Shown piece by piece: positions 1,492 through 55,318 of a DNA stretch of 64,000 nucleotides. Source of the stretch: Sabellastarte sp. h YS-2021. Its lineage: Eukaryota > Annelida > Polychaeta > Sabellida > Sabellidae. The notes under the pieces are model-generated. The model was not told where the DNA came from and did no database searches. It worked only from the letters and a program-made list of their open reading frames with translations. Location: the NCBI GenBank assembly GCA_964017235.1, contig OZ024934.1, positions 85,092,706-85,156,705 of the forward strand, given 5' to 3'. Positions within the stretch are counted from its first letter, which is position 1. Every line of letters starts with the position of its first letter. The position numbers were made by a program, and so were the translations under genes.

Positions 1492-1564
1492 TGCATTAAG
1501 ATATACTTAAATTTGGCAAAGTAAGACAATTTTAAGGCTGAAAACCATATTGTTTGCTAGAGCT

Positions 1565-1603: not shown

Positions 1604-1622
1604 AAATACATAACTGGTCCAA

Positions 1623-18665: not shown

Positions 18666-19346
18666 ATGTATTGGAAGTGCAGGTATCGAGGGGGTGATCA
18701 TATGGCACATCAGTCCAAAACCCCACTTAAACTTCATCAATCTGGCTCAGATTTTCACAGGAAACTCAGTTCATATCACACATTGATATTGTATTGGCTT
18801 GACTTACTCAGGAAACCAATTAAAATTTTCAATTTTCCGGGGTTTGGGGCCAGGCTCAGCCCCCCTCAAATTAGGAAATATCAGTTATATCCTAATACAA
18901 CCAATCTGAAGCTCTTCTTTAATGTTGCATATGTTTTAACAATAATTGAGGATATATTAGGCCCATTTGGAGCATTACATCTCTAAAAAAAATTATTTCA
19001 CCCATATAGTGCTGTAAAAATGGTCAAAAATACATGTAAATTACACCAAACAAGTACCAAATGTTGGTCTATAATGCTGAAATTTGGCCAGAATATAAGG
19101 TGGCACATACTAAATCTGACTGAACCGGTTTTAAAATTACATCTGATATAACAGTACCTATAGTTTGGCAATATTGGCTTCAGCTGGCCCCAAATTCCCT
19201 TCTGTGGGGCTGCATTAAGATATACTTAAATTTGGCAAAGTAAGACAATTTTAAGGCTGAAAACCATATTGTTTGCTAGGGCTGGCGCCACTAAATGAGA
19301 TTCCACAAGAATATTCCTTAAGAAATACATAACTGGTCCAAAATAC
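18666..19346 (+). repeat. Chimeric unit M28 (A 5' part, B 3' part)
   Basis: Type A marks (cttactcagg, aaaattttc) give way to type B marks (tatcagttat, ctttaatgttgc, taaaaaaaa, aattccctt) between 18827 and 18884. It sits at the join of the two 11/12-unit blocks, so it may mark the crossover that made the duplication. M1 has a switch in the same interval of the unit. Confidence 0.75.
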
Positions 19347-22300: not shown

Positions 22301-25300
22301 TACAACCAATCTGAAGCACTTCTTCAATTTTGCATATGTTTTAACAATAATTGAGGATATATTAGGCCCATTTGGAGCATTACATCTCTGAAAATAAATT
22401 ATTTCACCCATATAGTGCTGTAAAAATGGTCAAAAATACATGTAAATTACACCAAACCAGTACCAAATGTTGGTCTATAATGCTGAAATTTGGCCAGAAT
22501 ATAAGGTGGCACATACTAAATCTGACTGAACCGGTTTTAAAATTACATCTGATATAACAGTACCTATAGTTTGGCAATATTGGCTTCAGCTGGCCCCAAA
22601 TTCGCTTCTGTGGGGCTGCATTAAGATATACTTAAATTTGGCAAAGTAAGACAATTTTAAGGCTGAAAACCATATTGTTTGCTAGAGCTGGCGCCAGTAA
22701 ATGAGATTCCACAAGAATATTCCTTAAGAAATACATAACTGGTCCAAAATACATGTATTGGAAGTGCAGGTATCGAGGGGGTGATCATATGGCACATCAG
22801 TCCAAAACCCCACTTAAACTTCATCAATCTGGCTCAGATTTTCACAGGAAACACAGTTCATATCACACATTGATATTGTATTGGCTTGACTTATTCAGGA
22901 AACCAATTAAAAATTTCAATTTTCCGGGGTTTGGAGCCAGGCTCAGCCCCCCTCAAATTAGGAAATATCAGTTATATCCTAATACAACCAATCTGAAGCT
23001 CTTCTTTAATGTTGCATATGTTTTAACAATAATTGAGGATATATTAGGCCCATTTGGAGCATTACATCTCTAAAAAAAATTATTTCACCCATATAGTGCT
23101 GTAAAAATGGTCAAAAATACATGTAAATTACACCAAACAAGTACCAAATGTTGGTCTATAATGCTGAAATTTGGCCAGAATATAAGGTGGCACATACTAA
23201 ATCTGACTGAACCGGTTTTAAAATTACATCTGATATAACAGTACCTATAGTTTGGCAATATTGGCTTCAGCTGGCCGCAAATTCCCTTCTGTGGGGCTGC
23301 ATTAAGATATACTTAAATTTGGCAAAGTAAGACAATTTTAAGGCTGAAAACCATATTGTTTGCTAGGGCTGGCGCCACTAAATGAGATTCCACAAGAATA
23401 TTCCTTAAGAAATACATAACTGGTCCAAAATACATGTATTGGAAGTGCAGGTATCGAGGGGGTGATCATATGGCACATCAGTCCAAAACCCCACTTAAAC
23501 TTCATCAATCTGGCTCAGATTTTCACTGGAAACTCAGTTCATATCACACATTGATATTGTATTGGCTTGACTTACTCAGGAAACCAATTAAAATTTTCAA
23601 TTTTCCGGGGTTTGGGGCCAGGCTCAGCCCCCCTCAAATTAGGAAATATCAGGTATATCCTAATACAACCAATCTGAAGCTCTTCTTGAATTTTGCATAT
23701 GTTTTAACAATAATTGAGGATATATTAGGCCCATTTGGAGCATTACATCTCTGAAAATAAATTATTTCACCCATATAGTGCTGTAAAATGGTCAAAAATA
23801 CATGTAAATTACACCAAACCAGTACCAAATTGTGGTCTATAATGCTGAAATTTGGCCAGAATATAAGGTGGCACATACTAAATCTGACTGAACCGGTTTT
23901 AAAATTACATCTGATATAACAGTACCTATAGTTTGGCAATATTGGCTTCAGCTGGCCCCAAATTCGCTTCTGTGGGGCTGCATTAAGATATACTTAAATT
24001 TGGCAAAGTAAGACAATTTTAAGGCTGAAAACCATATTGTTTGCTACAGCTGGCGCCACTAAATGAGATTCCACAAGAATATTCCTTAAGAAATACATAA
24101 CTGGTCCAAAATACATGTATTGGAAGTGCAGGTATCGAGGGGGTGATCATATGGCACATCAGTCCAAAACCCCACTTAAACTTCATCAATCTGGCTCAGA
24201 TTTTCACAGGAAACTCAGTTCATATCACACATTGATATTGTATTGGCTTGACTTATTCAGGAAACCAATTAAAAATTTCAATTTTCCGGGGTTTGGGGCC
24301 AGGCTCAGCCCCCCTCAAATTAGGAAATATCAGTTATATCCTAATACAACCAATCTGAAGCTCTTCTTTAATGTTGCATATGTTTTAACAATAATTGAGG
24401 ATATATTAAGCCCATTTGGAGCATTACATCTCTAAAAAAAAATTATTTCACCCATATAGTGCTGTAAAAATGGTCAAAAATACATGTAAATTACACCAAA
24501 CAAGTACCAAATGTTGGTCTATAATGCTGAAATTTGGCCAGAATATAAGGTGGCACATACTAAATCTGACTGAACCGGTTTTAAAATTACATCTGATATA
24601 ACAGTACCTATAGTTTGGCAATATTGGCTTCAGCTGGCCCCAAATTCCCTTCTGTGGGGCCGCATTAAGATATACTTAAACTTGGCAAAGTAAGACAATT
24701 TTAAGGCTGAAAACCATATTGTTTGCTAGGGCTGGCGCCACTAAATGAGATTCCACAAGAATATTCCTTAAGAAATACATAACTGGTCCAAAATACATGT
24801 ATTGGAAGTGCAGGTATCGAGGGGGGAATCATATGGCACATCAGTCCAAACCCCACTTAAACTTCATCAATCTGGCTCAGATTTTCACAGGAAACTCAGT
24901 TCATATCACACATTGATATTGTATTGGCTTGACTTACTCAGGAAACCAATTAAAATTTTCAATTTTCCGGGGTTTGGGGCCAGGCTCAGCCCCCCTCAAA
25001 TTAGGAAATATCAGGTATATCCTAATACAACCAATCTGAAGCTCTTCTTGAATTTTGCATATGTTTTAACAATAATTGAGGATATATTAGGCCCATTTGG
25101 AGCATTACATCTCTGAAAATAAATTATTTCACCCATATAGTGCTGTAAAAATGGTCAAAAATACATGTAAATTACACCAAACCAGTACCAAATGTTGGTC
25201 TATAATGCTGAAATTTGGCCAGAATATAAGGTGGCACATACTAAATCTGACTGAACCGGTTTTAAAATTACATCTGATATAACAGTACCTATAGTTTGGC

Positions 25301-26180
25301 AATATTGGCTTCAGCTGGCCCCAAATTCGCTTCTGTGGGGCTGCATTAAGATATACTTAAATTTGGCAAAGTAAGACAATTTTAAGGCTGAAAACCATAT
25401 TGTTTGCTAGAGCTGGCGCCACTAAATGAGATTCCACAAGAATATTCCTTAAGAAATACATAACTGGTCCAAAATACATGTATTGGAAGTGCAGGTATCG
25501 AGGGGGTGATCATATGGCACATCAGTCCAAAACCCCACTTAAACTTCATCAATCTGGCTCAGATTTTCACAGGAAACTCAGTTCATATCACACATTGATA
25601 TTGTATTGGCTTGACTTATTCAGGAAACCAATTAAAAATTTCAATTTTCCGGGGTTTGGGGCCAGGCTCAGCCCCCCTCAAATTAGGAAATATCAGTTAT
25701 ATCCTAATACAACCAATCTGAAGCTCTTCTTTAATGTTGCATATGTTTTAACAATAATTGAGGATATATTAGGCCCATTTGGAGCATTACATCTCTAAAA
25801 AAATTATTTCACCCATATAGTGCTGTAAAAATGGTCAAAAATACATGTAAATTACACCAAACAAGTACCAAATGTTGGTCTATAATGCTGAAATTTGGCC
25901 AGAATATAAGGTGGCACATACTAAATCTGACTGAACCGGTTTTAAAATTACATCTGATATAACAGTACCTATAGTTTGGCAATATTGGCTTCAGCTGGCC
26001 CCAAATTCCCTTCTGTGGGGCTGCATTAAGATATACTTAAATTTGGCAAAGTAAGACAATTTTAAGGCTGAAAACCATATTGTTTGCTAGGGCTGGCGCC
26101 ACTAAATGAGATTCCACAAGAATAATCCTTAAGAAATACATAACTGGTCCAAAATACATGTACTGGAAGTGCAGGTATCG
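18884..26180 (+). repeat. Twelve-unit block, copy 2 (M28 3' part to M39 start)
   Basis: Units M29-M39 start at 19347, 20028, 20710, 21391, 22071, 22753, 23434, 24115, 24797, 25478 and 26158. Order is Aw-Bs-Am-B-Ah-Bh-Aw-Bs-Am-B-Aw. It repeats copy 1 with one more unit (the M34 3' half plus the M35 5' half). Both copies end in the same acatgtactgg mark at M27 and M39, then diverge (G8 against G5TG). M29 has a private tgatttactc, so some divergence followed the duplication. Confidence 0.85.
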
Positions 26181-27520
26181 AGGGGGTGATCATATGGCAC
26201 ATCAGTCCAAAACCCCACTTAAACTTCATCAATCTGGCTCAGATTTTCACTGGAAACTCAGTTCATATCACACATTGATATTGTATTGGCTTGACTTACT
26301 CAGGAAACCAATTAAAATTTTCAATTTTCCGGGGTTTGGGGCCAGGCTCAGCCCCCCTCAAATTAGGAAATATCAGGTATATCCTAATACAACCAATCTG
26401 AAGCTCTTCTTGAATTTTGCATATGTTTTAACAATAATTGAGGATATATTAGGCCCATTTGGAGCATTACATCTCTGAAAATAAATTATTTCACCCATAT
26501 AGTGCTGTAAAATGGTCAAAAATACATGTAAATTACACCAAACCAGTACCAAATTGTGGTCTATAATGCTGAAATTTGGCCAGAATATAAGGTGGCACAT
26601 ACTAAATCTGACTGAACCGGTTTTAAAATTACATCTGATATAACAGTACCTATAGTTTGGCAATATTGGCTTCAGCTGGCCCCAAATTCGCTTCTGTGGG
26701 GCTGCATTAAGATATACTTAAATTTGGCAAAGTAAGACAATTTTAAGGCTGAAAACCATATTGTTTGCTAGGGCTGGCGCCACTAAATGAGATTCCACAA
26801 GAATATTCCTTAAGAAATACATAACTGGTCCAAAATACATGTATTGGAAGTGCAGGTATCGAGGGGGTGATCATATGGCACATCAGTCCAAAACCCCACT
26901 TAAACTTCATCAATCTGGCTCAGATTTTCACAGGAAACTCAGTTCATATCACACATTGATATTGTATTGGCTTGACTTACTCAGGAAACCAATTAAAATT
27001 TTCAATTTTCCGGGGTTTGGGGCCAGGCTCAGCCCCTCTCAAATTAGGAAATATCAGGTATATCCTAATACAACCAATCTGAAGCTCTTCTTGAATTTTG
27101 CATATGTTTTAACAATAATTGAGGATATATTAGGCCCATTTGGAGCATTACATCTCTGAAAATAAATTATATCACCCATATAGTGCTGTAAAAATGGTCA
27201 AAAATACATGTAAATTACACCAAACCAGTACCAAATGTTGGTCTATAATGCTGAAATTTGGCCAGAATATAAGGTGGCACATACTAAATCTGACTGAACC
27301 GGTTTTAAAATTACATCTGATATAACAGTACCTATAGTTTGGCAATATTGGCTTCAGCTGGCTCCAAATTCGCTTCTGTGGGGCTGCATTAAGATATACT
27401 TAAATTTGGCAAAGTAAGACAATTTTAAGGCTGAAAACCATATTGTTTGCTAGAGCTGGCGCCACTAAATGAGATTCCACAAGAATATTCCTTAAGAAAT
27501 ACATAACTGGTCCAAAATAC

Positions 27521-28202
27521 ATGTATTGGAAGTGCAGGTATCGAGGGGGTGATCATATGGCACATCAGTCCAAAACCCCACTTAAACTTCATCAATCTGG
27601 CTCAGATTTTCACAGGAAACTCAGTTCATATCACACATTGATATTGTATTGGCTTGACTTATTCAGGAAACCAATTAAAAATTTCAATTTTCCGGGGTTT
27701 GGGGCCAGGCTCAGCCCCCCTCAAATTAGGAAATATCAGTTATATCCTAATACAACCAATCTGAAGCTCTTCTTGAATTTTGCATATGTTTTAACAATAA
27801 TTGAGGATATATTAGGCCCATTTGGAGCATTACATCTCTGAAAATAAATTATATCACCCATATAGTGCTGTAAAAATGGTCAAAAATACATGTAAATTAC
27901 ACCAAACCAGTACCAAATGTTGGTCTATAATGCTGAAATTTGGCCAGAATATAAGGTGGCACATACTAAATCTGACTGAACCGGTTTTAAAATTACATCT
28001 GATATAACAGTACCTATAGTTTGGCAATATTGGCTTCAGCTGGCCCCAAATTCGCTTCTGTGGGGCTGCATTAAGATATACTTAAATTTGGCAAAGTAAG
28101 ACAATTTTAAGGCTGAAAACCATATTGTTTGCTAGAGCTGGCGCCACTAAATGAGATTCCACAAGAATATTCCTTAAGAAATACATAACTGGTCCAAAAT
28201 AC
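27521..28202 (+). repeat. Chimeric unit M41 (B 5' part, A 3' part)
   Basis: Type B up to tatcagttat at 27740, then type A from cttgaattttgc (27775) onward including the As mark atatcaccc. The switch falls in 27741-27774. M63 (42507) and M67 (45232) have the identical structure, so the chimera arose once and was then copied: M63 by the 22-unit duplication, M67 by a later local exchange. Confidence 0.82.
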
Positions 28203-28883
28203 ATGTATTGGAAGTGCAGGTATCGAGGGGGTGATCATATGGCACATCAGTCCAAAACCCCACTTAAACTTCATCAATCTGGCTCAGATTTTCACAGGAA
28301 ACTCAGTTCATATCACACATTGATATTGTATTGGCTTGACTTATTCAGGAAACCAATTAAAAATTTCAATTTTCCGGGGTTTGGGGCCAGGCTCAGCCCC
28401 CCTCAAATTAGGAAATATCAGTTATATCCTAATACAAGCAATCTGAAGCTCTTCTTTAATGTTGCATATGTTTTAACAATAATTGAGGATATATTAGGCC
28501 CATTTGGAGCATTACATCTCTGAAAATAAATTATTTCACCCATATAGTGCTGTAAAATGGTCAAAACTACATGTAAATTACACCAAACCAGTACCAAATT
28601 GTGGTCTATAATGCTGAAATTTGGCCAGAATATAAGGTGGCACATACTAAATCTGACTGAACCGGTTTTAAAATTACATCTGATATAACAGTACCTATAG
28701 TTTGGCAATATTGGCTTCAGCTGGCCCCAAATTCGCTTCTGTGGGGCTGCATTAAGATATACTTAAATTTGGCAAAGTAAGACAATTTTAAGGCTGAAAA
28801 CCATATTGTTTGCTACAGCTGGCGCCACTAAATGAGATTCCACAAGAATATTCCTTAAGAAATACATAACTGGTCCAAAATAC
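28203..28883 (+). repeat. Chimeric Bn unit M42 (B 5' part, A 3' part)
   Basis: B marks run through ctttaatgttgc; A marks start at ctctgaaaataaatt, so the switch lies in 28462-28521. It carries the diagnostic acaagcaat and then ctgtaaaatgg and aaattgtgg. The same form recurs in M52, M56, M64, M74, M80, M83, M84, M87, M90 and M91, making it the most amplified chimera. M42 alone has caaaactacatg. Confidence 0.82.
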
Positions 28884-30925
28884 ATGTATTGGAAGTGCAG
28901 GTATCGAGGGGGTGATCATATGGCACATCAGTCCAAAACCCCACTTAAACTTCATCAATCTGGCTCAGATTTTCACAGGAAACTCAGTTCATATCACACA
29001 TTGATATTGTATTGGCTTGACTTATTCAGGAAACCAATTAAAAATTTCAATTTTCCGGGGTTTGGGGCCAGGCTCAGCCCCCCTCAAATTAGGAAATATC
29101 AGTTATATCCTAATACAACCAATCTGAAGCTCTTCTTTAATGTTGCATATGTTTTAACAATAATTGAGGATATATTAAGCCCATTTGGAGCATTACATCT
29201 CTAAAAAAAATTATTTCACCCATATAGTGCTGTAAAAATGGTCAAAAATACATGTAAATTACACCAAACAAGTACCAAATGTTGGTCTATAATGCTGAAA
29301 TTTGGCCAGAATATAAGGTGGCACATACTAAATCTGACTGAACCGGTTTTAAAATTACATCTGATATAACAGTACCTATAGTTTGGCAATATTGGCTTCA
29401 GCTGGCCCCAAATTCCCTTCTGTGGGGCCGCATTAAGATATACTTAAACTTGGCAAAGTAAGACAATTTTAAGGCTGAAAACCATATTGTTTGCTAGGGC
29501 TGGCGCCACTAAATGAGATTCCACAAGAATATTCCTTAAGAAATACATAACTGGTCCAAAATACATGTATTGGAAGTGCAGGTATCGAGGGGGGAATCAT
29601 ATGGCACATCAGTCCAAACCCCACTTAAACTTCATCAATCTGGCTCAGATTTTCACAGGAAACTCAGTTCATATCACACATTGATATTGTATTGGCTTGA
29701 CTTACTCAGGAAACCAATTAAAATTTTCAATTTTCCGGGGTTTGGGGCCAGGCTCAGCCCCCCTCAAATTAGGAAATATCAGGTATATCCTAATACAACC
29801 AATCTAAAGCTCTTCTTGAATTTTGCATATGTTTTAACAATAATTGAGGATATATTAGGCCCATTTGGAGCATTACATCTCTGAAAATAAATTATTTCAC
29901 CCATATAGTGCTGTAAAAATGGTCAAAAATACATGTAAATTACACCAAACCAGTACCAAATGTTGGTCTATAATGCTGAAATTTGGCCAGAATATAAGGT
30001 GGCACATACTAAATCTGACTGAACCGGTTTTAAAATTACATCTGATATAACAGTACCTATAGTTTGGCAATATTGGCTTCAGCTGGCCCCAAATTCGCTT
30101 CTGTGGGGCTGCATTAAGATATACTTAAATTTGGCAAAGTAAGACAATTTTAAGGCTGAAAACCATATTGTTTGCTAGAGCTGGCGCCACTAAATGAGAT
30201 TCCACAAGAATATTCCTTAAGAAATACATAACTGGTCCAAAATACATGTATTGGAAGTGCAGGTATCGAGGGGGTGATCATATGGCACATCAGTCCAAAA
30301 CCCCACTTAAACTTCATCAATCTGGCTCAGATTTTCACAGGAAACTCAGTTCATATCACACATTGATATTGTATTGGCTTGACTTATTCAGGAAACCAAT
30401 TAAAAATTTCAATTTTCCGGGGTTTGGGGCCAGGCTCAGCCCCCCTCAAATTAGGAAATATCAGTTATATCCTAATACAACCAATCTGAAGCTCTTCTTT
30501 AATGTTGCATATGTTTTAACAATAATTGAGGATATATTAGGCCCATTTGGAGCATTACATCTCTAAAAAAATTATTTCACCCATATAGTGCTGTAAAAAT
30601 GGTCAAAAATACATGTAAATTACACCAAACAAGTACCAAATGTTGGTCTATAATGCTGAAATTTGGCCAGAATATAAGGTGGCACATACTAAATCTGACT
30701 GAACCGGTTTTAAAATTACATCTGATATAACAGTACCTATAGTTTGGCAATATTGGCTTCAGCTGGCCCCAAATTCCCTTCTGTGGGGCTGCATTAAGAT
30801 ATACTTAAATTTGGCAAAGTAAGACAATTTTAAGGCTGAAAACCATATTGTTTGCTAGGGCTGGCGCCATTAAATGAGATTCCACAAGAATAATCCTTAA
30901 GAAATACATAACTGGTCCAAAATAC

Positions 30926-32287
30926 ATATACTGGAAGTGCAGGTATCGAGGGGGTGATCATATGGCACATCAGTCCAAAACCCCACTTAAACTTCATCAA
31001 TCTGGCTCAGATTTTCACAGGAAACTCAGTTCATATCACACATTGATATTGTATTGGCTTGACTTACTCAGGAAACCAATTAAAATTTTCAATTTTCCGG
31101 GGTTTGGGGCCAGGCTCAGCCCCCCTCAAATTAGGAAATATCAGGTATATCCTAATACAACCAATCTGAGGCTCTTCTTGAATTTTGCATATGTTTTAAC
31201 AATAATTGAGGATATATTAGGCCCATTTGGAGCATTACATCTCTGAAAATAAATTATTTCACCCATATAGTGCTGTAAAATGGTCAAAAATACATGTAAA
31301 TTACACCAAACCAGTACCAAATTGTGGTCTATAATGCTGAAATTTGGCCAGAATATAAGGTGGCACATACTAAATCTGACTGAACCGGTTTTAAAATTAC
31401 ATCTGATATAACAGTACCTATAGTTTGGCAATATTGGCTTCAGCTGGCCCCAAATTCCCTTCTGTGGGGCTGCATTAAGATATACTTAAATTTGGCAAAG
31501 TAAGACAATTTTAAGGCTGAAAACCATATTGTTTGCTAGGGCTGGCGCCACTAAATGAGATTCCACAAGAATAATCCTTAAGAAATACATAACTGGTCCA
31601 AAATACATATACTGGAAGTGCAGGTATCGAGGGGGTGATCATATGGCACATCAGTCCAAAACCCCACTTAAACTTCATCAATCTGGCTCAGATTTTCACA
31701 GGAAACTCAGTTCATATCACACATTGATATTGTATTGGCTTGACTTACTCAGGAAACCAATTAAAATTTTCAATTTTCCGGGGTTTGGGGCCAGGCTCAG
31801 CCCCCCTCAAATTAGGAAATATCAGGTATATCCTAATACAACCAATCTGAGGCTCTTCTTGAATTTTGCATATGTTTTAACAATAATTGAGGATATATTA
31901 GGCCCATTTGGAGCATTACATCTCTGAAAATAAATTATTTCACCCATATAGTGCTGTAAAATGGTCAAAAATACATGTAAATTACACCAAACCAGTACCA
32001 AATTGTGGTCTATAATGCTGAAATTTGGCCAGAATATAAGGTGGCACATACTAAATCTGACTGAACCGGTTTTAAAATTACATCTGATATAACAGTACCT
32101 ATAGTTTGGCAATATTGGCTTCAGCTGGCCCCAAATTCGCTTCTGTGGGGCTGCATTAAGATATACTTAAATTTGGCAAAGTAAGACAATTTTAAGGCTG
32201 AAAACCATATTGTTTGCTAGGGCTGGCGCCACTAAATGAGATTCCACAAGAATATTCCTTAAGAAATACATAACTGGTCCAAAATAC
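30926..32287 (+). repeat. Single-unit tandem duplication (M46, M47; type Ar)
   Basis: Two adjacent units at 30926 and 31607 share the rare marks acatatactgg and tgaggctc, otherwise seen only in M69. M46 is preceded by gcgccattaaatg, as is M69, while M47 has the usual gcgccactaaatg. M46 is followed by aattccctt and M47 by aattcgctt, placing the join in the 3' half. A one-unit unequal exchange is the simplest explanation. Confidence 0.8.
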
Positions 32288-35013
32288 ATGTATTGGAAGT
32301 GCAGGTATCGAGGGGGTGATCATATGGCACATCAGTCCAAAACCCCACTTAAACTTCATCAATCTGGCTCAGATTTTCACAGGAAACTCAGTTCATATCA
32401 CACATTGATATTGTATTGGCTTGACTTACTCAGGAAACCAATTAAAATTTTCAATTTTCCAGGGTTTGGGGCCAGGCTCAGCCCCTCTCAAATTAGGAAA
32501 TATCAGGTATATCCTAATACAACCAATCTGAAGCTCTTCTTGAGTTTTGCATATGTTTTAACAATAATTGAGGATATATTAGGCCCATTTGGAGCATTAC
32601 ATCTCTGAAAATAAATTATATCACCCATATAGTGCTGTAAAAATGGTCAAAAATACATGTAAATTACACCAAACCAGTACCAAATGTTGGTCTATAATGC
32701 TGAAATTTGGCCAGAATATAAGGTGGCACATACTAAATCTGACTGAACCGGTTTTAAAATTACATCTGATATAACAGTACCTATAGTTTGGCAATATTGG
32801 CTTCAGCTGGCTCCAAATTCGCTTCTGTGGGGCTGCATTAAGATATACTTAAATTTGGCAAAGTAAGACAATTTTAAGGCTGAAAACCATATTGTTTGCT
32901 AGAGCTGGCGCCACTAAATGAGATTCCACAAGAATATTCCTTAAGAAATACATAACTGGTCCAAAATACATGTATTGGAAGTGCAGGTATCGAGGGGGTG
33001 ATCATATGGCACATCAGTCCAAAACCCCACTTAAACTTCATCAATCTGGCTCAGATTTTCACAGGAAACTCAGTTCATATCACACATTGATATTGTATTG
33101 GCTTGACTTATTCAGGAAACCAATTAAAAATTTCAATTTTCCGGGGTTTGGGGCCAGGCTCAGCCCCCCTCAAATTAGGAAATATCAGTTATATCCTAAT
33201 ACAACCAATCTGAAGCTCTTCTTTAATGTTGCATATGTTTTAACAATAATTGAGGATATATTAAGCCCATTTGGAGCATTACATCTCTAAAAAAAATTAT
33301 TTCACCCATATAGTGCTGTAAAAATGGTCAAAAATACATGTAAATTACACCAAACAAGTACCAAATGTTGGTCTATAATGCTGAAATTTGGCCAGAATAT
33401 AAGGTGGCACATACTAAATCTGACTGAACCGGTTTTAAAATTACATCTGATATAACAGTACCTATAGTTTGGCAATATTGGCTTCAGCTGGCCCCAAATT
33501 CCCTTCTGTGGGGCCGCATTAAGATATACTTAAATTTGGCAAAGTAAGACAATTTTAAGGCTGAAAACCATATTGTTTGCTAGGGCTGGCGCCACTAAAT
33601 GAGATTCCACAAGAATATTCCTTAAGAAATACATAACTGGTCCAAAATACATGTATTGGAAGTGCAGGTATCGAGGGGGTGATCATATGGCACATCAGTC
33701 CAAAACCCCACTTAAACTTCATCAATCTGGCTCAGATTTTCACAGGAAACTCAGTTCATATCACACATTGATATTGTATTGGCTTGACTTATTCAGGAAA
33801 CCAATTAAAAATTTCAATTTTCCGGGGTTTGGGGCCAGGCTCAGCCCCCCTCAAATTAGGAAATATCAGTTATATCCTAATACAACCAATCTGAAGCTCT
33901 TCTTTAATGTTGCATATGTTTTAACAATAATTGAGGATATATTAGGCCCATTTGGAGCATTACATCTCTAAAAAAAATTATTTCACCCATATAGTGCTGT
34001 AAAAATGGTCAAAAATACATGTAAATTACACCAAACAAGTACCAAATGTTGGTCTATAATGCTGAAATTTGGCCAGAATATAAGGTGGCACATACTAAAT
34101 CTGAATGAACCGGTTTTAAAATTACATCTGATATAACAGTACCTATAGTTTGGCAATATTGGCTTCAGCTGGCCTCAAATTCCCTTCTGTGGGGCCGCAT
34201 TAAGATATACTTAAATTTGGCAAAGGAAGACAATTTTAAGGCTGAAAACCATATTGTTTGCTAGGGCTGGCGCCACTAAATGAGATTCCACAAGAATATT
34301 CCTTAAGAAATACATAACTGGTCCAAAATACATGTATTGGAAGTGCAGGTATCGAGGGGGTGATCATATGGCACATCAGTCCAAAACCCCACTTAAACTT
34401 CATCAATCTGGCTCAGATTTTCACAGGAAACTCAGTTCATATCACACATTGATATTGTATTGGCTTGACTTACTCAGGAAACCAATTAAAATTTTCAATT
34501 TTCCGGGGTTTGGGGCCAGGCTCAGCCCCTCTCAAATTAGGAAATATCAGGTATATCCTAATACAACCAATCTGAAGCTCTTCTTGAATTTTGCATATAT
34601 TTTAACAATAATTGAGGATATATTAGGCCCATTTGGAGCATTACATCTCTGAAAATAAATTATATCACCCATATAGTGCTGTAAAAATGGTCAAAAATAC
34701 ATGTAAATTACACCAAACCAGTACCAAATGTTGGTCTATAATGCTGAAATTTGGCCAGAATATAAGGTGGCACATACTAAATCTGACTGAACCGGTTTTA
34801 AAATTACATCTGATATAACAGTACCTATAGTTTGGCAATATTGGCTTCAGCTGGCCCCAAATTCGCTTCTGTGGGGCTGCATTAAGATATACTTAAATTT
34901 GGCAAAGTAAGACAATTTTAAGGCTGAAAACCATATTGTTTGCTAGAGCTGGCGCCACTAAATGAGATTCCACAAGAATATTCCTTAAGAAATACATAAC
35001 TGGTCCAAAATAC

Positions 35014-40463: not shown

Positions 40464-43400
40464 ATGTATTGGAAGTGCAGGTATCGAGGGGGTGATCATA
40501 TGGCACATCAGTCCAAAACCCCACTTAAACTTCATCAATCTGGCTCAGATTTTCACAGGAAACTCAGTTCATATCACACATTGATATTGTATTGGCTTGA
40601 CTTATTCAGGAAACCAATTAAAAATTTCAATTTTCCGGGGTTTGGGGCCAGGCTCAGCCCCCCTCAAATTAGGAAATATCAGTTATATCCTAATACAACC
40701 AATCTGAAGCTCTTCTTTAATGTTGCATATGTTTTAACAATAATTGAGGATATATTAGGCCCATTTGGAGCATTACATCTCTAAAAAAATTATTTCACCC
40801 ATATAGTGCTGTAAAAATGGTCAAAAATACATGTAAATTACACCAAACAAGTACCAAATGTTGGTCTATAATGCTGAAATTTGGCCAGAATATAAGGTGG
40901 CACATACTAAATCTGACTGAACCGGTTTTAAAATTACATCTGATATAACAGTACCTATAGTTTGGCAATATTGGCTTCAGCTGGCCCCAAATTCCCTTCT
41001 GTGGGGCTGCATTAAGATATACTTAAATTTGGCAAAGTAAGACAATTTTAAGGCTGAAAACCATATTGTTTGCTAGGGCTGGCGCCACTAAATGAGATTC
41101 CACAAGAATAATCCTTAAGAAATACATAACTGGTCCAAAATACATGTACTGGAAGTGCAGGTATCGAGGGGGTGATCATATGGCACATCAGTCCAAAACC
41201 CCACTTAAACTTCATCAATCTGGCTCAGATTTTCACTGGAAACTCAGTTCATATCACACATTGATATTGTATTGGCTTGACTTACTCAGGAAACCAATTA
41301 AAATTTTCAATTTTCCGGGGTTTGGGGCCAGGCTCAGCCCCTCTCAAATTAGGAAATATCAGGTATATCCTAATACAACCAATCTGAAGCTCTTCTTGAA
41401 TTTTGCATATGTTTTAACAATAATTGAGGATATATTAGGCCCATTTGGAGCATTACATCTCTGAAAATAAATTATTTCACCCATATAGTGCTGTAAAATG
41501 GTCAAAAATACATGTAAATTACACCAAACCAGTACCAAATTGTGGTCTATAATGCTGAAATTTGGCCAGAATATAAGGTGGCACATACTAAATCTGACTG
41601 AACCGGTTTTAAAATTACATCTGATATAACAGTACCTATAGTTTGGCAATATTGGCTTCAGCTGGCCCCAAATTCGCTTCTGTGGGGCTGCATTAAGATA
41701 TACTTAAATTTGGCAAAGTAAGACAATTTTAAGGCTGAAAACCATATTGTTTGCTAGGGCTGGCGCCACTAAATGAGATTCCACAAGAATATTCCTTAAG
41801 AAATACATAACTGGTCCAAAATACATGTATTGGAAGTGCAGGTATCGAGGGGGTGATCATATGGCACATCAGTCCAAAACCCCACTTAAACTTCATCAAT
41901 CTGGCTCAGATTTTCACAGGAAACTCAGTTCATATCACACATTGATATTGTATTGGCTTGACTTACTCAGGAAACCAATTAAAATTTTCAATTTTCCGGG
42001 GTTTGGGGCCAGGCTCAGCCCCTCTCAAATTAGGAAATATCAGGTATATCCTAATACAACCAATCTGAAGCTCTTCTTGAATTTTGCATATGTTTTAACA
42101 ATAATTGAGGATATATTAGGCCCATTTGGAGCATTACATCTCTGAAAATAAATTATATCACCCATATAGTGCTGTAAAAATGGTCAAAAATACATGTAAA
42201 TTACACCAAACCAGTACCAAATGTTGGTCTATAATGCTGAAATTTGGCCAGAATATAAGGTGGCACATACTAAATCTGACTGAACCGGTTTTAAAATTAC
42301 ATCTGATATAACAGTACCTATAGTTTGGCAATATTGGCTTCAGCTGGCTCCAAATTCGCTTCTGTGGGGCTGCATTAAGATATACTTAAATTTGGCAAAG
42401 TAAGACAATTTTAAGGCTGAAAACCATATTGTTTGCTAGAGCTGGCGCCACTAAATGAGATTCCACAAGAATATTCCTTAAGAAATACATAACTGGTCCA
42501 AAATACATGTATTGGAAGTGCAGGTATCGAGGGGGTGATCATATGGCACATCAGTCCAAAACCCCACTTAAACTTCATCAATCTGGCTCAGATTTTCACA
42601 GGAAACTCAGTTCATATCACACATTGATATTGTATTGGCTTGACTTATTCAGGAAACCAATTAAAAATTTCAATTTTCCGGGGTTTGGGGCCAGGCTCAG
42701 CCCCCCTCAAATTAGGAAATATCAGTTATATCCTAATACAACCAATCTGAAGCTCTTCTTGAATTTTGCATATGTTTTAACAATAATTGAGGATATATTA
42801 GGCCCATTTGGAGCATTACATCTCTGAAAATAAATTATATCACCCATATAGTGCTGTAAAAATGGTCAAAAATACATGTAAATTACACCAAACCAGTACC
42901 AAATGTTGGTCTATAATGCTGAAATTTGGCCAGAATATAAGGTGGCACATACTAAATCTGACTGAACTGGTTTTAAAATTACATCTGATATAACAGTACC
43001 TATAGTTTGGCAATATTGGCTTCAGCTGGCCCCAAATTCGCTTCTGTGGGGCTGCATTAAGATATACTTAAATTTGGCAAAGTAAGACAATTTTAAGGCT
43101 GAAAACCATATTGTTTGCTAGAGCTGGCGCCACTAAATGAGATTCCACAAGAATATTCCTTAAGAAATACATAACTGGTCCAAAATACATGTATTGGAAG
43201 TGCAGGTATCGAGGGGGTGATCATATGGCACATCAGTCCAAAACCCCACTTAAACTTCATCAATCTGGCTCAGATTTTCACAGGAAACTCAGTTCATATC
43301 ACACATTGATATTGTATTGGCTTGACTTATTCAGGAAACCAATTAAAAATTTCAATTTTCCGGGGTTTGGGGCCAGGCTCAGCCCCCCTCAAATTAGGAA

Positions 43401-46400
43401 ATATCAGTTATATCCTAATACAAGCAATCTGAAGCTCTTCTTTAATGTTGCATATGTTTTAACAATAATTGAGGATATATTAGGCCCATTTGGAGCATTA
43501 CATCTCTGAAAATAAATTATTTCACCCATATAGTGCTGTAAAATGGTCAAAAATACATGTAAATTACACCAAACCAGTACCAAATTGTGGTCTATAATGC
43601 TGAAATTTGGCCAGAATATAAGGTGGCACATACTAAATCTGACTGAACCGGTTTTAAAATTACATCTGATATAACAGTACCTATAGTTTGGCAATATTGG
43701 CTTCAGCTGGCCCCAAATTCGCTTCTGTGGGGCTGCATTAAGATATACTTAAATTTGGCAAAGTAAGACAATTTTAAGGCTGAAAACCATATTGTTTGCT
43801 ACAGCTGGCGCCACTAAATGAGATTCCACAAGAATATTCCTTAAGAAATACATAACTGGTCCAAAATACATGTATTGGAAGTGCAGGTATCGAGGGGGTG
43901 ATCATATGGCACATCAGTCCAAAACCCCACTTAAACTTCATCAATCTGGCTCAGATTTTCACAGGAAACTCAGTTCATATCACACATTGATATTGTATTG
44001 GCTTGACTTATTCAGGAAACCAATTAAAAATTTCAATTTTCCGGGGTTTGGGGCCAGGCTCAGCCCCCCTCAAATTAGGAAATATCAGTTATATCCTAAT
44101 ACAACCAATCTGAAGCTCTTCTTTAATGTTGCATATGTTTTAACAATAATTGAGGATATATTAAGCCCATTTGGAGCATTACATCTCTAAAAAAAATTAT
44201 TTCACCCATATAGTGCTGTAAAAATGGTCAAAAATACATGTAAATTACACCAAACAAGTACCAAATGTTGGTCTATAATGCTGAAATTTGGCCAGAATAT
44301 AAGGTGGCACATACTAAATCTGACTGAACCGGTTTTAAAATTACATCTGATATAACAGTACCTATAGTTTGGCAATATTGGCTTCAGCTGGCCCCAAATT
44401 CCCTTCTGTGGGGCCGCATTAAGATATACTTAAACTTGGCAAAGTAAGACAATTTTAAGGCTGAAAACCATATTGTTTGCTAGGGCTGGCGCCACTAAAT
44501 GAGATTCCACAAGAATATTCCTTAAGAAATACATAACTGGTCCAAAATACATGTATTGGAAGTGCAGGTATCGAGGGGGGAATCATATGGCACATCAGTC
44601 CAAACCCCACTTAAACTTCATCAATCTGGCTCAGATTTTCACAGGAAACTCAGTTCATATCACACATTGATATTGTATTGGCTTGACTTACTCAGGAAAC
44701 CAATTAAAATTTTCAATTTTCCGGGGTTTGGGGCCAGGCTCAGCCCCTCTCAAATTAGGAAATATCAGGTATATCCTAATACAACCAATCTGAAGCTCTT
44801 CTTGAATTTTGCATATGTTTTAACAATAATTGAGGATATATTAGGCCCATTTGGAGCATTACATCTCTGAAAATAAATTATATCACCCATATAGTGCTGT
44901 AAAAATGGTCAAAAATACATGTAAATTACACCAAACCAGTACCAAATGTTGGTCTATAATGCTGAAATTTGGCCAGAATATAAGGTGGCACATACTAAAT
45001 CTGACTGAACCGGTTTTAAAATTACATCTGATATAACAGTACCTATAGTTTGGCAATATTGGCTTCAGCTGGCTCCAAATTCGCTTCTGTGGGGCTGCAT
45101 TAAGATATACTTAAATTTGGCAAAGTAAGACAATTTTAAGGCTGAAAACCATATTGTTTGCTAGAGCTGGCGCCACTAAATGAGATTCCACAAGAATATT
45201 CCTTAAGAAATACATAACTGGTCCAAAATACATGTATTGGAAGTGCAGGTATCGAGGGGGTGATCATATGGCACATCAGTCCAAAACCCCACTTAAACTT
45301 CATCAATCTGGCTCAGATTTTCACAGGAAACTCAGTTCATATCACACATTGATATTGTATTGGCTTGACTTATTCAGGAAACCAATTAAAAATTTCAATT
45401 TTCCGGGGTTTGGGGCCAGGCTCAGCCCCCCTCAAATTAGGAAATATCAGTTATATCCTAATACAACCAATCTGAAGCTCTTCTTGAATTTTGCATATGT
45501 TTTAACAATAATTGAGGATATATTAGGCCCATTTGGAGCATTACATCTCTGAAAATAAATTATATCACCCATATAGTGCTGTAAAAATGGTCAAAAATAC
45601 ATGTAAATTACACCAAACCAGTACCAAATGTTGGTCTATAATGCTGAAATTTGGCCAGAATATAAGGTGGCACATACTAAATCTGACTGAACCGGTTTTA
45701 AAATTACATCTGATATAACAGTACCTATAGTTTGGCAATATTGGCTTCAGCTGGCCCCAAATTCGCTTCTGTGGGGCTGCATTAAGATATACTTAAATTT
45801 GGCAAAGTAAGACAATTTTAAGGCTGAAAACCATATTGTTTGCTAGAGCTGGCGCCACTAAATGAGATTCCACAAGAATATTCCTTAAGAAATACATAAC
45901 TGGTCCAAAATACATGTATTGGAAGTGCAGGTATCGAGGGGGTGATCATATGGCACATCAGTCCAAAACCCCACTTAAACTTCATCAATCTGGCTCAGAT
46001 TTTCACAGGAAACACAGTTCATATCACACATTGATATTGTATTGGCTTGACTTATTCAGGAAACCAATTAAAAATTTCAATTTTCCGGGGTTTGGGGCCA
46101 GGCTCAGCCCCCCTCAAATTAGGAAATATCAGTTATATCCTAATACAACCAATCTGAAGCTCTTCTTTAATGTTGCATATGTTTTAACAATAATTGAGGA
46201 TATATTAGGCCCATTTGGAGCATTACATCTCTAAAAAAATTATTTCACCCATATAGTGCTGTAAAAATGGTCAAAAATACATGTAAATTACACCAAACAA
46301 GTACCAAATGTTGGTCTATAATGCTGAAATTTGGCCAGAATATAAGGTGGCACATACTAAATCTGACTGAACCGGTTTTAAAATTACATCTGATATAACA

Positions 46401-49400
46401 GTACCTATAGTTTGGCAATATTGGCTTCAGCTGGCCCCAAATTCCCTTCTGTGGGGCTGCATTAAGATATACTTAAATTTGGCAAAGTAAGACAATTTTA
46501 AGGCTGAAAACCATATTGTTTGCTAGGGCTGGCGCCATTAAATGAGATTCCACAAGAATAATCCTTAAGAAATACATAACTGGTCCAAAATACATATACT
46601 GGAAGTGCTGGTATCGAGGGGGTGATCATATGGCACATCAGTCCAAAACCCCACTTAAACTTCATCAATCTGGCTCAGATTTTCACAGGAAACTCAGTTC
46701 ATATCACACATTGATATTGTATTGGCTTGACTTACTCAGGAAACCAATTAAAATTTTCAATTTTCCGGGGTTTGGGGCCAGGCTCAGCCCCCCTCAAATT
46801 AGGAAATATCAGGTATATCCTAATACAACCAATCTGAGGCTCTTCTTGAATTTTGCATATGTTTTAACAATAATTGAGGATATATTAGGCCCATTTGGAG
46901 CATTACATCTCTGAAAATAAATTATTTCACCCATATAGTGCTGTAAAATGGTCAAAAATACATGTAAATTACACCAAACCAGTACCAAATTGTGGTCTAT
47001 AATGCTGAAATTTGGCCAGAATATAAGGTGGCACATACTAAATCTGACTGAACCGGTTTTAAAATTACATCTGATATAACAGTACCTATAGTTTGGCAAT
47101 ATTGGCTTCAGCTGGCCCCAAATTCGCTTCTGTGGGGCTGCATTAAGATATACTTAAATTTGGCAAAGTAAGACAATTTTAAGGCTGAAAACCATATTGT
47201 TTGCTAGGGCTGGCGCCACTAAATGAGATTCCACAAGAATATTCCTTAAGAAATACATAACTGGTCCAAAATACATGTATTGGAAGTGCAGGTATCGAGG
47301 GGGTGATCATATGGCACATCAGTCCAAAACCCCACTTAAACTTCATCAATCTGGCTCAGATTTTCACAGGAAACTCAGTTCATATCACACATTGATATTG
47401 TATTGGCTTGACTTACTCAGGAAACCAATTAAAATTTTCAATTTTCCGGGGTTTGGGGCCAGGCTCAGCCCCTCTCAAATTAGGAAATATCAGGTATATC
47501 CTAATACAACCAATCTGAAGCTCTTCTTGAATTTTGCATATGTTTTAACAATAATTGAGGATATATTAGGCCCATTTGGAGCATTACATCTCTGAAAATA
47601 AATTATATCACCCATATAGTGCTGTAAAAATGGTCAAAAATACATGTAAATTACACCAAACCAGTACCAAATGTTGGTCTATAATGCTGAAATTTGGCCA
47701 GAATATAAGGTGGCACATACTAAATCTGACTGAACCGGTTTTAAAATTACATCTGATATAACAGTACCTATAGTTTGGCAATATTGGCTTCAGCTGGCTC
47801 CAAATTCGCTTCTGTGGGGCTGCATTAAGATATACTTAAATTTGGCAAAGTAAGACAATTTTAAGGCTGAAAACCATATTGTTTGCTAGAGCTGGCGCCA
47901 CTAAATGAGATTCCACAAGAATATTCCTTAAGAAATACATAACTGGTCCAAAATACATGTATTGGAAGTGCAGGTATCGAGGGGGTGATCATATGGCACA
48001 TCAGTCCAAAACCCCACTTAAACTTCATCAATCTGGCTCAGATTTTCACAGGAAACTCAGTTCATATCACACATTGATATTGTATTGGCTTGACTTATTC
48101 AGGAAACCAATTAAAAATTTCAATTTTCCGGGGTTTGGGGCCAGGCTCAGCCCCCCTCAAATTAGGAAATATCAGTTATATCCTAATACAACCAATCTGA
48201 AGCTCTTCTTTAATGTTGCATATGTTTTAACAATAATTGAGGATATATTAAGCCCATTTGGAGCATTACATCTCTAAAAAAAAATTATTTCACCCATATA
48301 GTGCTGTAAAAATGGTCAAAAATACATGTAAATTACACCAAACAAGTACCAAATGTTGGTCTATAATGCTGAAATTTGGCCAGAATATAAGGTGGCACAT
48401 ACTAAATCTGACTGAACCGGTTTTAAAATTACATCTGATATAACAGTACCTATAGTTTGGCAATATTGGCTTCAGCTGGCCCCAAATTCCCTTCTGTGGG
48501 GCCGCATTAAGATATACTTAAATTTGGCAAAGTAAGACAATTTTAAGGCTGAAAACCATATTGTTTGCTAGGGCTGGCGCCACTAAATGAGATTCCACAA
48601 GAATATTCCTTAAGAAATACATAACTGGTCCAAAATACATGTATTGGAAGTGCAGGTATCGAGGGGGTGATCATATGGCACATCAGTCCAAAACCCCACT
48701 TAAACTTCATCAATCTGGCTCAGATTTTCACAGGAAACTCAGTTCATATCACACATTGATATTGTATTGGCTTGACTTATTCAGGAAACCAATTAAAAAT
48801 TTCAATTTTCCGGGGTTTGGGGCCAGGCTCAGCCCCCCTAAAATTAGGAAATATCAGTTATATCCTAATACAACCAATCTGAAGCTCTTCTTTAATGTTG
48901 CATATGTTTTAACAATAATTGAGGATATATTAGGCCCATTTGGAGCATTACATCTCTAAAAAAAATTATTTCACCCATATAGTGCTGTAAAAATGGTCAA
49001 AAATACATGTAAATTACACCAAACAAGTACCAAATGTTGGTCTATAATGCTGAAATTTGGCCAGAATATAAGGTGGCACATACTAAATCTGAATGAACCG
49101 GTTTTAAAATTACATCTGATATAACAGTACCTATAGTTTGGCAATATTGGCTTCAGCTGGCCCCAAATTCCCTTCTGTGGGGCCGCATTAAGATATACTT
49201 AAATTTGGCAAAGGAAGACAATTTTAAGGCTGAAAACCATATTGTTTGCTAGGGCTGGCGCCACTAAATGAGATTCCACAAGAATATTCCTTAAGAAATA
49301 CATAACTGGTCCAAAATACATGTATTGGAAGTGCAGGTATCGAGGGGGTGATCATATGGCACATCAGTCCAAAACCCCACTTAAACTTCATCAATCTGGC

Positions 49401-50590
49401 TCAGATTTTCACAGGAAACTCAGTTCATATCACACATTGATATTGTATTGGCTTGACTTACTCAGGAAACCAATTAAAATTTTCAATTTTCCGGGGTTTG
49501 GGGCCAGGCTCAGCCCCTCTCAAATTAGGAAATATCAGGTATATCCTAATACAACCAATCTGAAGCTCTTCTTGAATTTTGCATATGTTTTAACAATAAT
49601 TGAGGATATATTAGGCCCATTTGGAGCATTACATCTCTGAAAATAAATTATATCACCCATATAGTGCTGTAAAAATGGTCAAAAATACATGTAAATTACA
49701 CCAAACCAGTACCAAATGTTGGTCTATAATGCTGAAATTTGGCCAGAATATAAGGTGGCACATACTAAATCTGACTGAACCGGTTTTAAAATTACATCTG
49801 ATATAACAGTACCTATAGTTTGGCAATATTGGCTTCAGCTGGCCCCAAATTCGCTTCTGTGGGGCTGCATTAAGATATACTTAAATTTGGCAAAGTAAGA
49901 CAATTTTAAGGCTGAAAACCATATTGTTTGCTAGAGCTGGCGCCACTAAATGAGATTCCACAAGAATATTCCTTAAGAAATACATAACTGGTCCAAAATA
50001 CATGTATTGGAAGTGCAGGTATCGAGGGGGTGATCATATGGCACATCAGTCCAAAACCCCACTTAAACTTCATCAATCTGGCTCAGATTTTCACAGGAAA
50101 CTCAGTTCATATCACACATTGATATTGTATTGGCTTGACTTATTCAGGAAACCAATTAAAAATTTCAATTTTCCGGGGTTTGGGGCCAGGCTCAGCCCCC
50201 CTCAAATTAGGAAATATCAGTTATATCCTAATACAAGCAATCTGAAGCTCTTCTTTAATGTTGCATATGTTTTAACAATAATTGAGGATATATTAGGCCC
50301 ATTTGGAGCATTACATCTCTGAAAATAAATTATTTCACCCATATAGTGCTGTAAAATGGTCAAAAATACATGTAAATTACACCAAACCAGTACCAAATTG
50401 TGGTCTATAATGCTGAAATTTGGCCAGAATATAAGGTGGCACATACTAAATCTGACTGAACCGGTTTTAAAATTACATCTGATATAACAGTACCTATAGT
50501 TTGGCAATATTGGCTTCAGCTGGCCCCAAATTCGCTTCTGTGGGGCTGCATTAAGATATACTTAAATTTGGCAAAGTAAGACAATTTTAA
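38485..50590 (+). repeat. Eighteen-unit stretch, copy 2 of 22-unit repeat (M57-M74)
   Basis: Units M61-M74 start at 41144, 41825, 42507, 43189, 43870, 44551, 45232, 45914, 46594, 47275, 47957, 48639, 49320 and 50002. Order is Aw-Bs-Am-B-Aw-As-B/A-Bn-Bs-Am-B/A-Bh-Ar-As-Bs-Bk-As-Bn. The correspondence ends near 50590, where M53 and M75 differ in type. Private differences from copy 1 include gcccctctc in M61, gaactgg after M63, gtgctgg in M69 and cccctaaaatt in M72. Confidence 0.82.
44551..45913 (+). repeat. Exchange patch M66-M67 (Am/As chimera and B/A unit)
   Basis: M66 begins as Am (G6AA, gtccaaacccc near 44600) and becomes As (gcccctctc near 44735, then atatcaccc and gctccaaattcg). M67 copies the M63 chimera. 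In the other 22-unit copy the matching units are plain Am (M44) and B (M45). An out-of-register exchange with M62-M63 would produce this. Confidence 0.7.
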
Positions 50591-51230
50591 GGCTGAAAAC
50601 CATATTGTTTGCTAGAGCTGGCGCCACTAAATGAGATTCCACAAGAATATTCCTTAAGAAATACATAACTGGTCCAAAATACATGTATTGGAAGTGCAGG
50701 TATCGAGGGGGTGATCATATGGCACATCAGTCCAAAACCCCACTTAAACTTCATCAATCTGGCTCAGATTTTCACAGGAAACTCAGTTCATATCACACAT
50801 TGATATTGTATTGGCTTGACTTATTCAGGAAACCAATTAAAAATTTCAATTTTCCGGGGTTTGGGGCCAGGCTCAGCCCCCCTCAAATTAGGAAATATCA
50901 GTTATATCCTAATACAACCAATCTGAAGCTCTTCTTTAATGTTGCATATGTTTTAACAATAATTGAGGATATATTAAGCCCATTTGGAGCATTACATCTC
51001 TAAAAAAAAATTATTTCACCCATATAGTGCTGTAAAAATGGTCAAAAATACATGTAAATTACACCAAACAAGTACCAAATGTTGGTCTATAATGCTGAAA
51101 TTTGGCCAGAATATAAGGTGGCACATACTAAATCTGACTGAACCGGTTTTAAAATTACATCTGATATAACAGTACCTATAGTTTGGCAATATTGGCTTCA
51201 GCTGGCCCCAAATTCCCTTCTGTGGGGCTG
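47970..51230 (+). repeat. Six-unit repeat, copy 1 (M71-M75)
   Basis: Order Bs-Bk-As-Bn-Bs, repeated 4088 bp later at M77-M81 with M76 (Aw) between the copies. Shared marks are cccctaaaatt in M72/M78, ctgaatgaacc and caaaggaag after them, and acaagcaat in M74/M80. The copies part near 51230/55318 (ggggctgc against ggggccgc). Confidence 0.82.
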
Positions 51231-55000: not shown

Positions 55001-55318
55001 TACAACCAATCTGAAGCTCTTCTTTAATGTTGCATATGTTTTAACAATAATTGAGGATATATTAAGCCCATTTGGAGCATTACATCTCTAAAAAAAAATT
55101 ATTTCACCCATATAGTGCTGTAAAAATGGTCAAAAATACATGTAAATTACACCAAACAAGTACCAAATGTTGGTCTATAATGCTGAAATTTGGCCAGAAT
55201 ATAAGGTGGCACATACTAAATCTGACTGAACCGGTTTTAAAATTACATCTGATATAACAGTACCTATAGTTTGGCAATATTGGCTTCAGCTGGCCCCAAA
55301 TTCCCTTCTGTGGGGCCG
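52058..55318 (+). repeat. Six-unit repeat, copy 2 (M77-M81)
   Basis: Units start at 52046, 52727, 53408, 54090 and 54771 and match M71-M75 at 4088 bp. M77 has private aatatatgtattgg and caatcttaagc. The block overlaps the start of the seven-unit repeat, so it is part of two nested duplications. Confidence 0.82.

Follow-up and report, generated by a model that had tools for sequence, protein, structure and literature searches.

The window (the whole stretch of DNA analysed, 64,000 bp) contains a 12.2-kb, 18-unit block of satellite monomers that occurs twice at a spacing of 22 units. Read from the sequence, this spacing is probably best understood as the result of two steps, a tandem duplication of 18 units (12.26 kb) and, later, a 4-unit (2.725 kb) duplication of its seam. 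The two copies span 23440–50615 (Table 1), bearing out the first-pass annotation, which had placed an 18-unit stretch repeated at this spacing between 23500 and 50590.

The array and its monomer

The 64-kb window is filled by a ~681-bp satellite monomer arranged head-to-tail, with 94 anchors spaced 680–683 bp apart. Full units were numbered M01–M93 (n = 93), and a cut 94th monomer was excluded from every monomer count. The monomer alignment has 683 columns, of which 60 are variable, and unit pairs average 98.4% identity over the array. Variant linkage declines with physical distance and carries on over the monomer boundary. This long, homogeneous head-to-tail array is a eukaryotic-type satellite, and it looks non-coding wherever this was scanned, with no closed ORF of at least 120 aa in the whole window (translation table 11), no Rfam match within 30000–34000 and no tRNA in 1–3000. 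No known satellite with a monomer of 680, 681 or 682 bp was recognised among the literature matches listed. Among collections that are not eukaryotic, a 28-mer from the repeat had no match in viral_contigs, a 21-mer from the repeat had a single match in genome_contigs (with dissimilar flanks) and positions 1–1400 had no match in a phage collection.

Distinct monomers duplicated as blocks, and an A/B alternation that recalls a dimer, are shared with alpha satellite and other centromeric higher-order repeats. However, the alpha satellite monomer is ~171 bp, against 681 bp here, and no internal sub-period of ~170 or ~341 bp was detected (autocorrelation 0.268 and 0.267, respectively, vs a mean of shuffle maxima of 0.317), nor a CENP-B box on either consensus strand. 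Unlike centromeric higher-order repeats, block sizes here are varied, with no single iterated unit.

Table 1 Satellite array, duplicated segments and individual units in the window.
Feature	Position	Strand	Partner or source	Basis
Satellite monomer array, head-to-tail (681/682 bp)	1–64000	.		Anchors and 683-column alignment
5-unit-lag repeat near window start	1344–8296	.	4753–11703	LOD 99.8, 9 mismatches
11-unit-lag repeat	11370–15460	.	18864–22954	LOD 80.2, 1 mismatch
18-unit (12.2 kb) duplication, copy 1, inside M35–M53	23440–35627	.	38426–50615	Match at lag 14986–14988 and unit alignment
M46/M47 pair of copy 1, single unit (M69) in copy 2; offsets gain	30663–32024	.		208T
4-unit duplication across 18-unit seam, first copy	34669–37958	.	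37394–40683	Lag-4 LOD 62.0, 1 mismatch
Four-unit linker M53–M56, read as second copy of seam segment	35432–38156	.		Unit comparisons
Hybrid seam unit M57 (= M53)	38157–38837	.		Like M75 in columns 1–196 and like M35 from column 270
18-unit duplication, copy 2, inside M57–M75	38426–50615	.	23440–35627	Same lag match and unit alignment
One-unit net gain in copy 2 (M66–M68), read as copy	44643–46007	.	41918–43282	Lag-4 segment, 1 mismatch, LOD only 25.5
6-unit-lag repeat, first copy, with 466A at 48840	48289–51220	.	52377–55308	LOD 58.3, 0 mismatches
7-unit tandem duplication, first copy	52671–57695	.	57441–62465	LOD 95.3, 2 mismatches

The 12-kb repeat at a 22-unit lag

The repeat includes an exact match of 2916 bp (23440–26355). 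Base-level alignment of the copies with cheap long gaps fell into one gap, and a unit-level alignment of M35–M52 with M57–M74 was used instead. Here 17 of the 18 units are paired in order, with 18 differences (99.84% identity, vs the array mean of 98.4%), at an alignment cost of 28; shuffling the order of copy 2 gave a minimum cost of 70 (mean 98.2; n = 1000), and reversing it gave 115. The shared unit order claimed for these blocks at offsets of 14986–14988 bp is seen for these 17 units, but the strict 22-unit register is interrupted at M45–M46 (8 and 20 differences) because of one-unit changes that cancel.

Ranked by LOD score, lag 22 comes first among all lags, with one segment at 117.3 and another at 62.8. 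By a simpler unit score lag 22 is second (30), behind lag 5 (31). Shuffles of single-unit order reach a LOD of 46.6 (n = 60) and a unit score of 14 (n = 200), while block shuffles reach maxima (LOD/unit score) of 61.4/24 with 2-unit, 81.9/30 with 4-unit and 123.8/35 with 7-unit blocks. The values observed at lag 22 are exceeded by 7-unit-block shuffles, and the unit score is equalled by 4-unit-block shuffles; both were judged poor nulls because such blocks retain real local order and shift genuine repeats to new lags.

Copy 2 has a +1-unit change, cancelled by what is probably a −1-unit change. In the region of the gain, M67 is identical to M63, and M66 agrees with M62 from column 317 on; the lag-4 segment behind this reading is weak, and the gain would need two events or a templated insertion. 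At the offsetting change, 208T is exclusive to M46 and M69, which differ from each other at 279 only.

Probable duplication of the seam

Addition of the linker M53–M56 turns an 18-unit lag into one of 22 units. M53–M55 differ from M57–M59 at one site (five in the next best of 86 blocks), and M52–M55 differ from M56–M59 also at one (15 in the next best of 83 blocks). M53 and M57 share a sequence seen in no other unit, M56 does not differ from M52, and an exact match of 2518 bp at lag 2725 starts at 34665. The neighbours that form the seam (M52-type then M53-type) are found at two places only, each inside the near-identical 4-unit pair, and of the nine units with the M52 sequence, just M52 and M56 precede an M53-type unit. 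As the 4-unit segment includes the 18-unit seam, the 18-unit duplication would have come first and the 4-unit duplication second. Uniqueness of the seam to the duplication would fail if M34 was formerly M52-type.

For the 4-unit event, identity between the recombining units is unbroken over about 585 columns, from column 598 of M51 to column 499 of M52. Columns 231 and 269 of seam unit M57 match neither parent, a point against the preferred reading. A lag-18 match of M35–M38 to the linker is non-specific (LOD 42.8 vs a shuffle maximum of 46.6) and was dropped as strong support for the 18 + 4 reading, M18–M20 fitting M53–M55 equally as well as M35–M37 do (5 differences each).

Nested repeats elsewhere in the window

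Besides 22, strong lags by LOD are 4, 5, 6, 7, 11 and 17. Variant 466A is present in M72, M78 and M85 only and is absent from M50, the copy-1 partner of M72, supporting onward copying of a later variant of copy 2 at 6- and 7-unit lags, to M78 and M85. Together with the 4-unit pair that holds the 18-unit seam, this relay supports, at the level of sequence, the copying of earlier duplication products by later events, which is the part of the earlier proposal of layered expansion that these data sustain. A 7-unit similarity inside both 12-kb copies was dropped as a candidate older layer (LOD 37.4 and 20.7 vs a mean of unit-shuffle maxima of 36.4).

In the centromere model of layered expansion, as presented in the portions available of PMC11034957, PMC10910784 and PMC11276891, a young homogeneous core is flanked by older diverged sequence. 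The array resembles this model in having newer duplications atop older ones, a comparison made within 64 kb, which is too short for core/flank geometry.

Proposed growth by exchange of misaligned monomers

Nested duplication is how satellite arrays are thought to grow. This array has probably grown and shrunk via in-register exchange of mis-aligned monomers, by unequal sister-chromatid exchange or by its one-sided equivalent, break-induced replication (BIR). An 18-unit tandem duplication would have been followed by 4-unit duplication of its seam, and then, or separately, by 6- and 7-unit events and by the gain of one unit and the loss of another in copy 2. Taken as a whole, 18 + 4 duplications by exchange are, in our judgement, quite likely to be the best explanation. 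Repeat offsets are whole monomers throughout and, apart from its two discordant columns, the seam unit is a hybrid, as unequal exchange predicts. These features, the joint duplication of blocks of distinct monomers and the fit of seven of eight statistics to neutral simulation resemble the unequal-exchange model of Smith (1976), to the extent that it is set out in the excerpted text of PMC8997354.

Those seven statistics lie inside the 5–95% range of a neutral, homology-blind simulation in which exchanges averaged 8 units (71/80 runs kept); the lag-1 ratio lies outside. Runs outside a set range of mean difference (7–16 for homology-blind and strong-bias runs, 8–14.5 for a later homology-biased set) were dropped before percentages were taken. 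The observed lag-1 ratio is 1.215, and the simulated 95th percentile is 0.16, 0.56, 0.95, 1.17 and 1.21 at means of 1, 2, 4, 8 and 15 units. The ratio was attained in 0/65, 0/57, 0/65 and 0/71 kept homology-blind runs at means of 1, 2, 4 and 8, and in ~3/76 at 15. This percentile climbs with mean exchange length, and few-unit exchanges therefore fit worst.

Neighbouring units are thus more unlike than homology-blind exchange yields, and in this the array departs from the homology-blind form of the model as excerpted. The excess difference could be explained by a mild homology preference or by an old A/B dimer. With homology-biased exchange (mean 8, bias 0.3) the ratio was attained in 21/102 runs, and all tolerances were satisfied in at most 4/160 runs at any one homology-biased setting; strong homology bias was rejected, the simulated repeats being too long. 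Exchange in the array is inferred to be neutral, driven by homology and several monomers in length.

Alternative explanations

Two haplotypes fused end to end by the assembly, or a single stretch counted twice, could mimic a second copy on one chromosome: assembly is difficult for near-identical repeats of such length, and the copies, differing at only 18 sites over 17 paired units, are at a plausible allelic distance. Such an artefact is improbable: private variants in each copy (M42, M44, M48 and M51 vs M64, M69 and M72; for example at 28567 in M42, 32461 and 32544 in M48 and 48840 in M72), together with the unit changes, indicate that one copy was not simply read twice, the 4-unit repeat over the seam would need a separate cause, and repeats of similar style are found throughout the array. 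The first-pass annotation had instead proposed a very long 22-unit higher-order unit. Of that proposal the nesting of duplications stands, but the unit itself was rejected: only two copies are present, and M53–M56 match neither M75–M78 (16, 18, 19 and 11 differences) nor M31–M34 (12, 5, 7 and 10 differences). Nor does the array show the many in-register iterations of an n-monomer unit that mark a classical higher-order repeat: the 18-unit block is present twice and the 22-unit block is never repeated whole. A true 22-unit unit (M35–M56 or M53–M74), duplicated once and with four units of one copy overwritten later, would account for an offset of 22 units across 12 kb, yet we consider it very improbable, as it requires replacement exactly at the end of the repeat and leaves the pair M52–M55 and M56–M59, with its single difference, unexplained.

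Least probable of all is rolling-circle amplification of excised circles followed by reinsertion. Whole-monomer offsets would also be expected from this process, and the 5-unit lag, which matches across 10.2 units, suggests three successive copies, but runs of many equal blocks are predicted, whereas the 18-, 4- and 7-unit blocks are each found about twice in tandem. A special case of the preferred explanation by exchange is that the duplications arose by BIR restarting out of register and not by reciprocal unequal crossing-over; this has a real, if lesser, chance of being correct. The M66–M68 change, with two units from four units upstream replacing one, resembles template switching, but duplication of 4 units and then deletion of 3 would yield the same product, the segment behind the reading is weak, and BIR and reciprocal exchange are inseparable from one sequence. 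PMC11034957, in the portion available, presents BIR as a supported route to changes of copy number in human centromere arrays; such expansion could produce the same nested blocks and the M66–M68 change.

Implications for satellite evolution

The history of a satellite array is usually blurred by the array itself. In this one, variants are sufficiently few and sufficiently shared that some duplications can be placed in order, and exchange size is roughly bounded, with one to four monomers fitting poorly and about eight better. The array illustrates a known process well; the process itself is not new. A more specific and rather doubtful possibility is that exchange is homology-checked, with crossovers between the A and B subfamilies disfavoured, so that multi-kb duplications tend to retain the A/B alternation. 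If true, the array would be a readable record from which to estimate how long satellite exchanges are and how much homology they require.

Array and monomer

All 64,000 bases of the window form a single head-to-tail array of an AT-rich ~681/682-bp monomer, in which a 20-base anchor occurs 94 times, 680–683 bp apart, and G+C content is 0.36–0.37 in each 2-kb bin. The 93 complete monomers (M01–M93; the cut 94th monomer was omitted from the alignment and counts) align over 683 columns, 60 of them variable; in 15 of these only one unit deviates. Pairs of monomers are on average 98.4% identical, and 51 of the 93 sequences are distinct. No closed ORF of at least 120 aa (table 11) was found in the window, no Rfam match within 30000–34000 and no tRNA in 1–3000. 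The monomer consensus is depleted in CpG (observed/expected 0.22) with an excess of TG (1.24) and CA (1.31), a pattern suggestive of DNA methylation in the host. The first monomer and the consensus both contain a 21-base direct repeat with 90% identity that ends in ATACATGTA. A 21-base exact monomer match in a bacterial metagenome contig (L001:3206–3226), with flanks lacking clear similarity, was read as chance.

Main repeat features of the array
Feature	Position	Units	Remarks
21-base direct repeat	248–268 and 617–637	first monomer
5-unit repeat	1344–11703		near window start
Copy 1	23440–35627	within M35–M53	recurs as copy 2, lag 14986–14988
Linker	35432–38156	M53–M56	between the two copies; best explained as second seam copy
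Copy 2	38426–50615	within M57–M75

A 12.2-kb repeat at a 22-unit spacing

The first-pass annotation described an 18-unit stretch repeated at a 22-unit spacing, and alignment of the two copies (M35–M52 with M57–M74) by unit, permitting single-unit gaps, bears this out: 17 of the 18 units pair in order with 18 differences at a cost of 28, the lowest cost in 1000 shuffles of copy-2 unit order being 70. Lag 22 (offset in monomer units) gives the top-scoring segment among all lags (LOD 117.3, M35–M44; additional segment 62.8, M47–M53) and ranks second by a simpler unit score (30 versus 31 for lag 5), with the register broken at M45 (8 differences) and M46 (20 differences). Single-unit order shuffles reached at most LOD 46.6 (60 shuffles) and unit score 14 (200 shuffles). 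Shuffles of 2-, 4- and 7-unit blocks reached 61.4/24, 81.9/30 and 123.8/35, respectively, the last surpassing the observed lag-22 values; since such shuffles keep real repeats intact and shift them to other places, they were judged poor nulls, and their scores argue against a heavy reading of any single lag from score alone. The 5-unit repeat, whose match spans 10.2 units at lag 5, maybe reflects two rounds.

Duplication of the whole 22-unit segment, by contrast, is not upheld: M53–M56 differ from M75–M78 at 16, 18, 19 and 11 sites and from M31–M34 at 12, 5, 7 and 10 sites, matching neither. The spacing is best explained by head-to-tail duplication of an 18-unit block (12.26 kb), followed by duplication of a 4-unit segment (2.725 kb) including the new seam between the copies. 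M52–M55 and M56–M59 show one difference over four units (next-best of 83 four-unit blocks, 15), and M53 is identical to M57 and to no other unit. Nine units are identical to M52, and the M53 type comes next only after M52 and M56; an M52-type unit followed by an M53-type unit is the pair expected at the junction of the last unit of copy 1 (M52) with the first of copy 2 (M57). At lag 18, M36 = M54, M37 and M55 have one difference, M38 = M56 to column 499, and M35 and M53 have four differences (columns 107, 115, 231 and 269). This likeness agrees with the two-step reading but is not specific, because its LOD (42.8) is below the shuffle maximum and M18–M20 match M53–M55 equally well. A weak point is that, if M34 was once M52-type, the seam neighbours could predate the duplication.

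The seam unit (M57 = M53) reads as M75 through column 196 and, from column 270 onward, as M35. In between, columns 231 and 269 fit neither and perhaps reflect a later change or conversion, possibly a short conversion tract; the seam unit shares its variants at these two columns (which lie at 23401 and 23439 in M35) with M39. The units that recombined in the 4-unit event share an identical stretch of about 585 columns, running from M51 column 598 to M52 column 499. Within copy 2, M66–M68 (column 358 to column 358) resembles M62–M64 over the same columns, replacing one unit, with M67 = M63 and a LOD of only 25.5, as would result from a templated insertion or from duplication of four units and then deletion of three. 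Variant 208T is confined to M46 and M69, so the M46/M47 pair was most likely reduced to one unit in copy 2; this one-unit loss and the one-unit gain cancel, restoring the 22-unit offset.

Assembly error is possible, as one copy read twice or a join of two haplotypes; the first of these is made less likely by the private variants of the copies and by their differing one-unit changes.

Order of events

The suggestion that later events copied the products of earlier ones finds support here. The 4-unit segment includes the 18-unit seam, which places its duplication later. Variant 466A is carried by M72, M78 and M85, and M50, the counterpart of M72, lacks it; the simplest reading dates its origin after the 18-unit event and has it relayed at 6- and 7-unit lags (M71–M76, 0 mismatches; M78–M85, 2 mismatches), in either order. 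Had M50 lost 466A through conversion, this step would no longer hold. Similarity at seven units within both copies was not counted as an older layer, its LOD (37.4 and 20.7) being no better than that of unit shuffles (mean of maxima, 36.4).

Alternation, exchange and mechanism

Two monomer subfamilies, 51 A and 42 B (assigned by columns 406/425), have consensus sequences differing at 11 columns. A and B switch in 66 of 92 neighbour pairs (shuffle mean 46.1; reached in 0 of 20,000 shuffles), most strictly in M01–M38 (31/37), with 34/54 in M39–M93 (P = 0.029). Neutral simulations applied random duplication and deletion to a 250-unit array with a 93-unit sample (80 runs per setting), discarding runs with a mean difference outside 7–16. 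At a mean exchange of 8 units (71/80 runs kept), seven of eight statistics fell within the 5–95% range; the eighth, the lag-1 ratio (difference between neighbouring units relative to mean difference), was 1.215 in the window. Simulated 95th percentiles were 0.16, 0.56, 0.95, 1.17 and 1.21 at means of 1, 2, 4, 8 and 15 units, all below the observed ratio, so in this model small exchanges are far off and a mean of 8 comes close yet also misses.

Homology-blind exchange attained the lag-1 ratio in 0/71 kept runs (mean 8) and about 3/76 (mean 15), in 0/87 of a repeat simulation (mean 8), and in 1/106, 3/132 and 4/133 of a further set (means 8, 15 and 20). Mild homology preference attained it in 1/93 and 11/88 (mean 5), 14/123 and 21/102 (mean 8), 12/123 and 26/130 (mean 12) and 10/131 (mean 20); under strong preference, repeat length overshot. 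Because all tolerances were met in at most 4/160 runs under every setting, mild homology preference is suggested rather than shown, and an inherited A/B dimer would explain the alternation equally well.

The array differs from a classical higher-order repeat because its 18-unit block occurs only twice, and from alpha satellite in lacking a 170-bp period and a CENP-B box; layered expansion at centromeres exceeds in scale the 64 kb compared here. In the unequal-exchange model, variant monomers should be duplicated together, forming larger blocks; the main alternative is break-induced replication (PMC8997354, PMC11034957). The array fits both and does not tell them apart. Linkage between variants declines with physical distance with no step at the monomer boundary (mean r2 at 200–300 bp, 0.107 inside a monomer and 0.180 across a boundary). 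Taken with the whole-monomer offsets and the hybrid seam examined, this boundary-blind linkage reads as the traces left by homologous exchange between mis-aligned monomers, which would have shaped the array.
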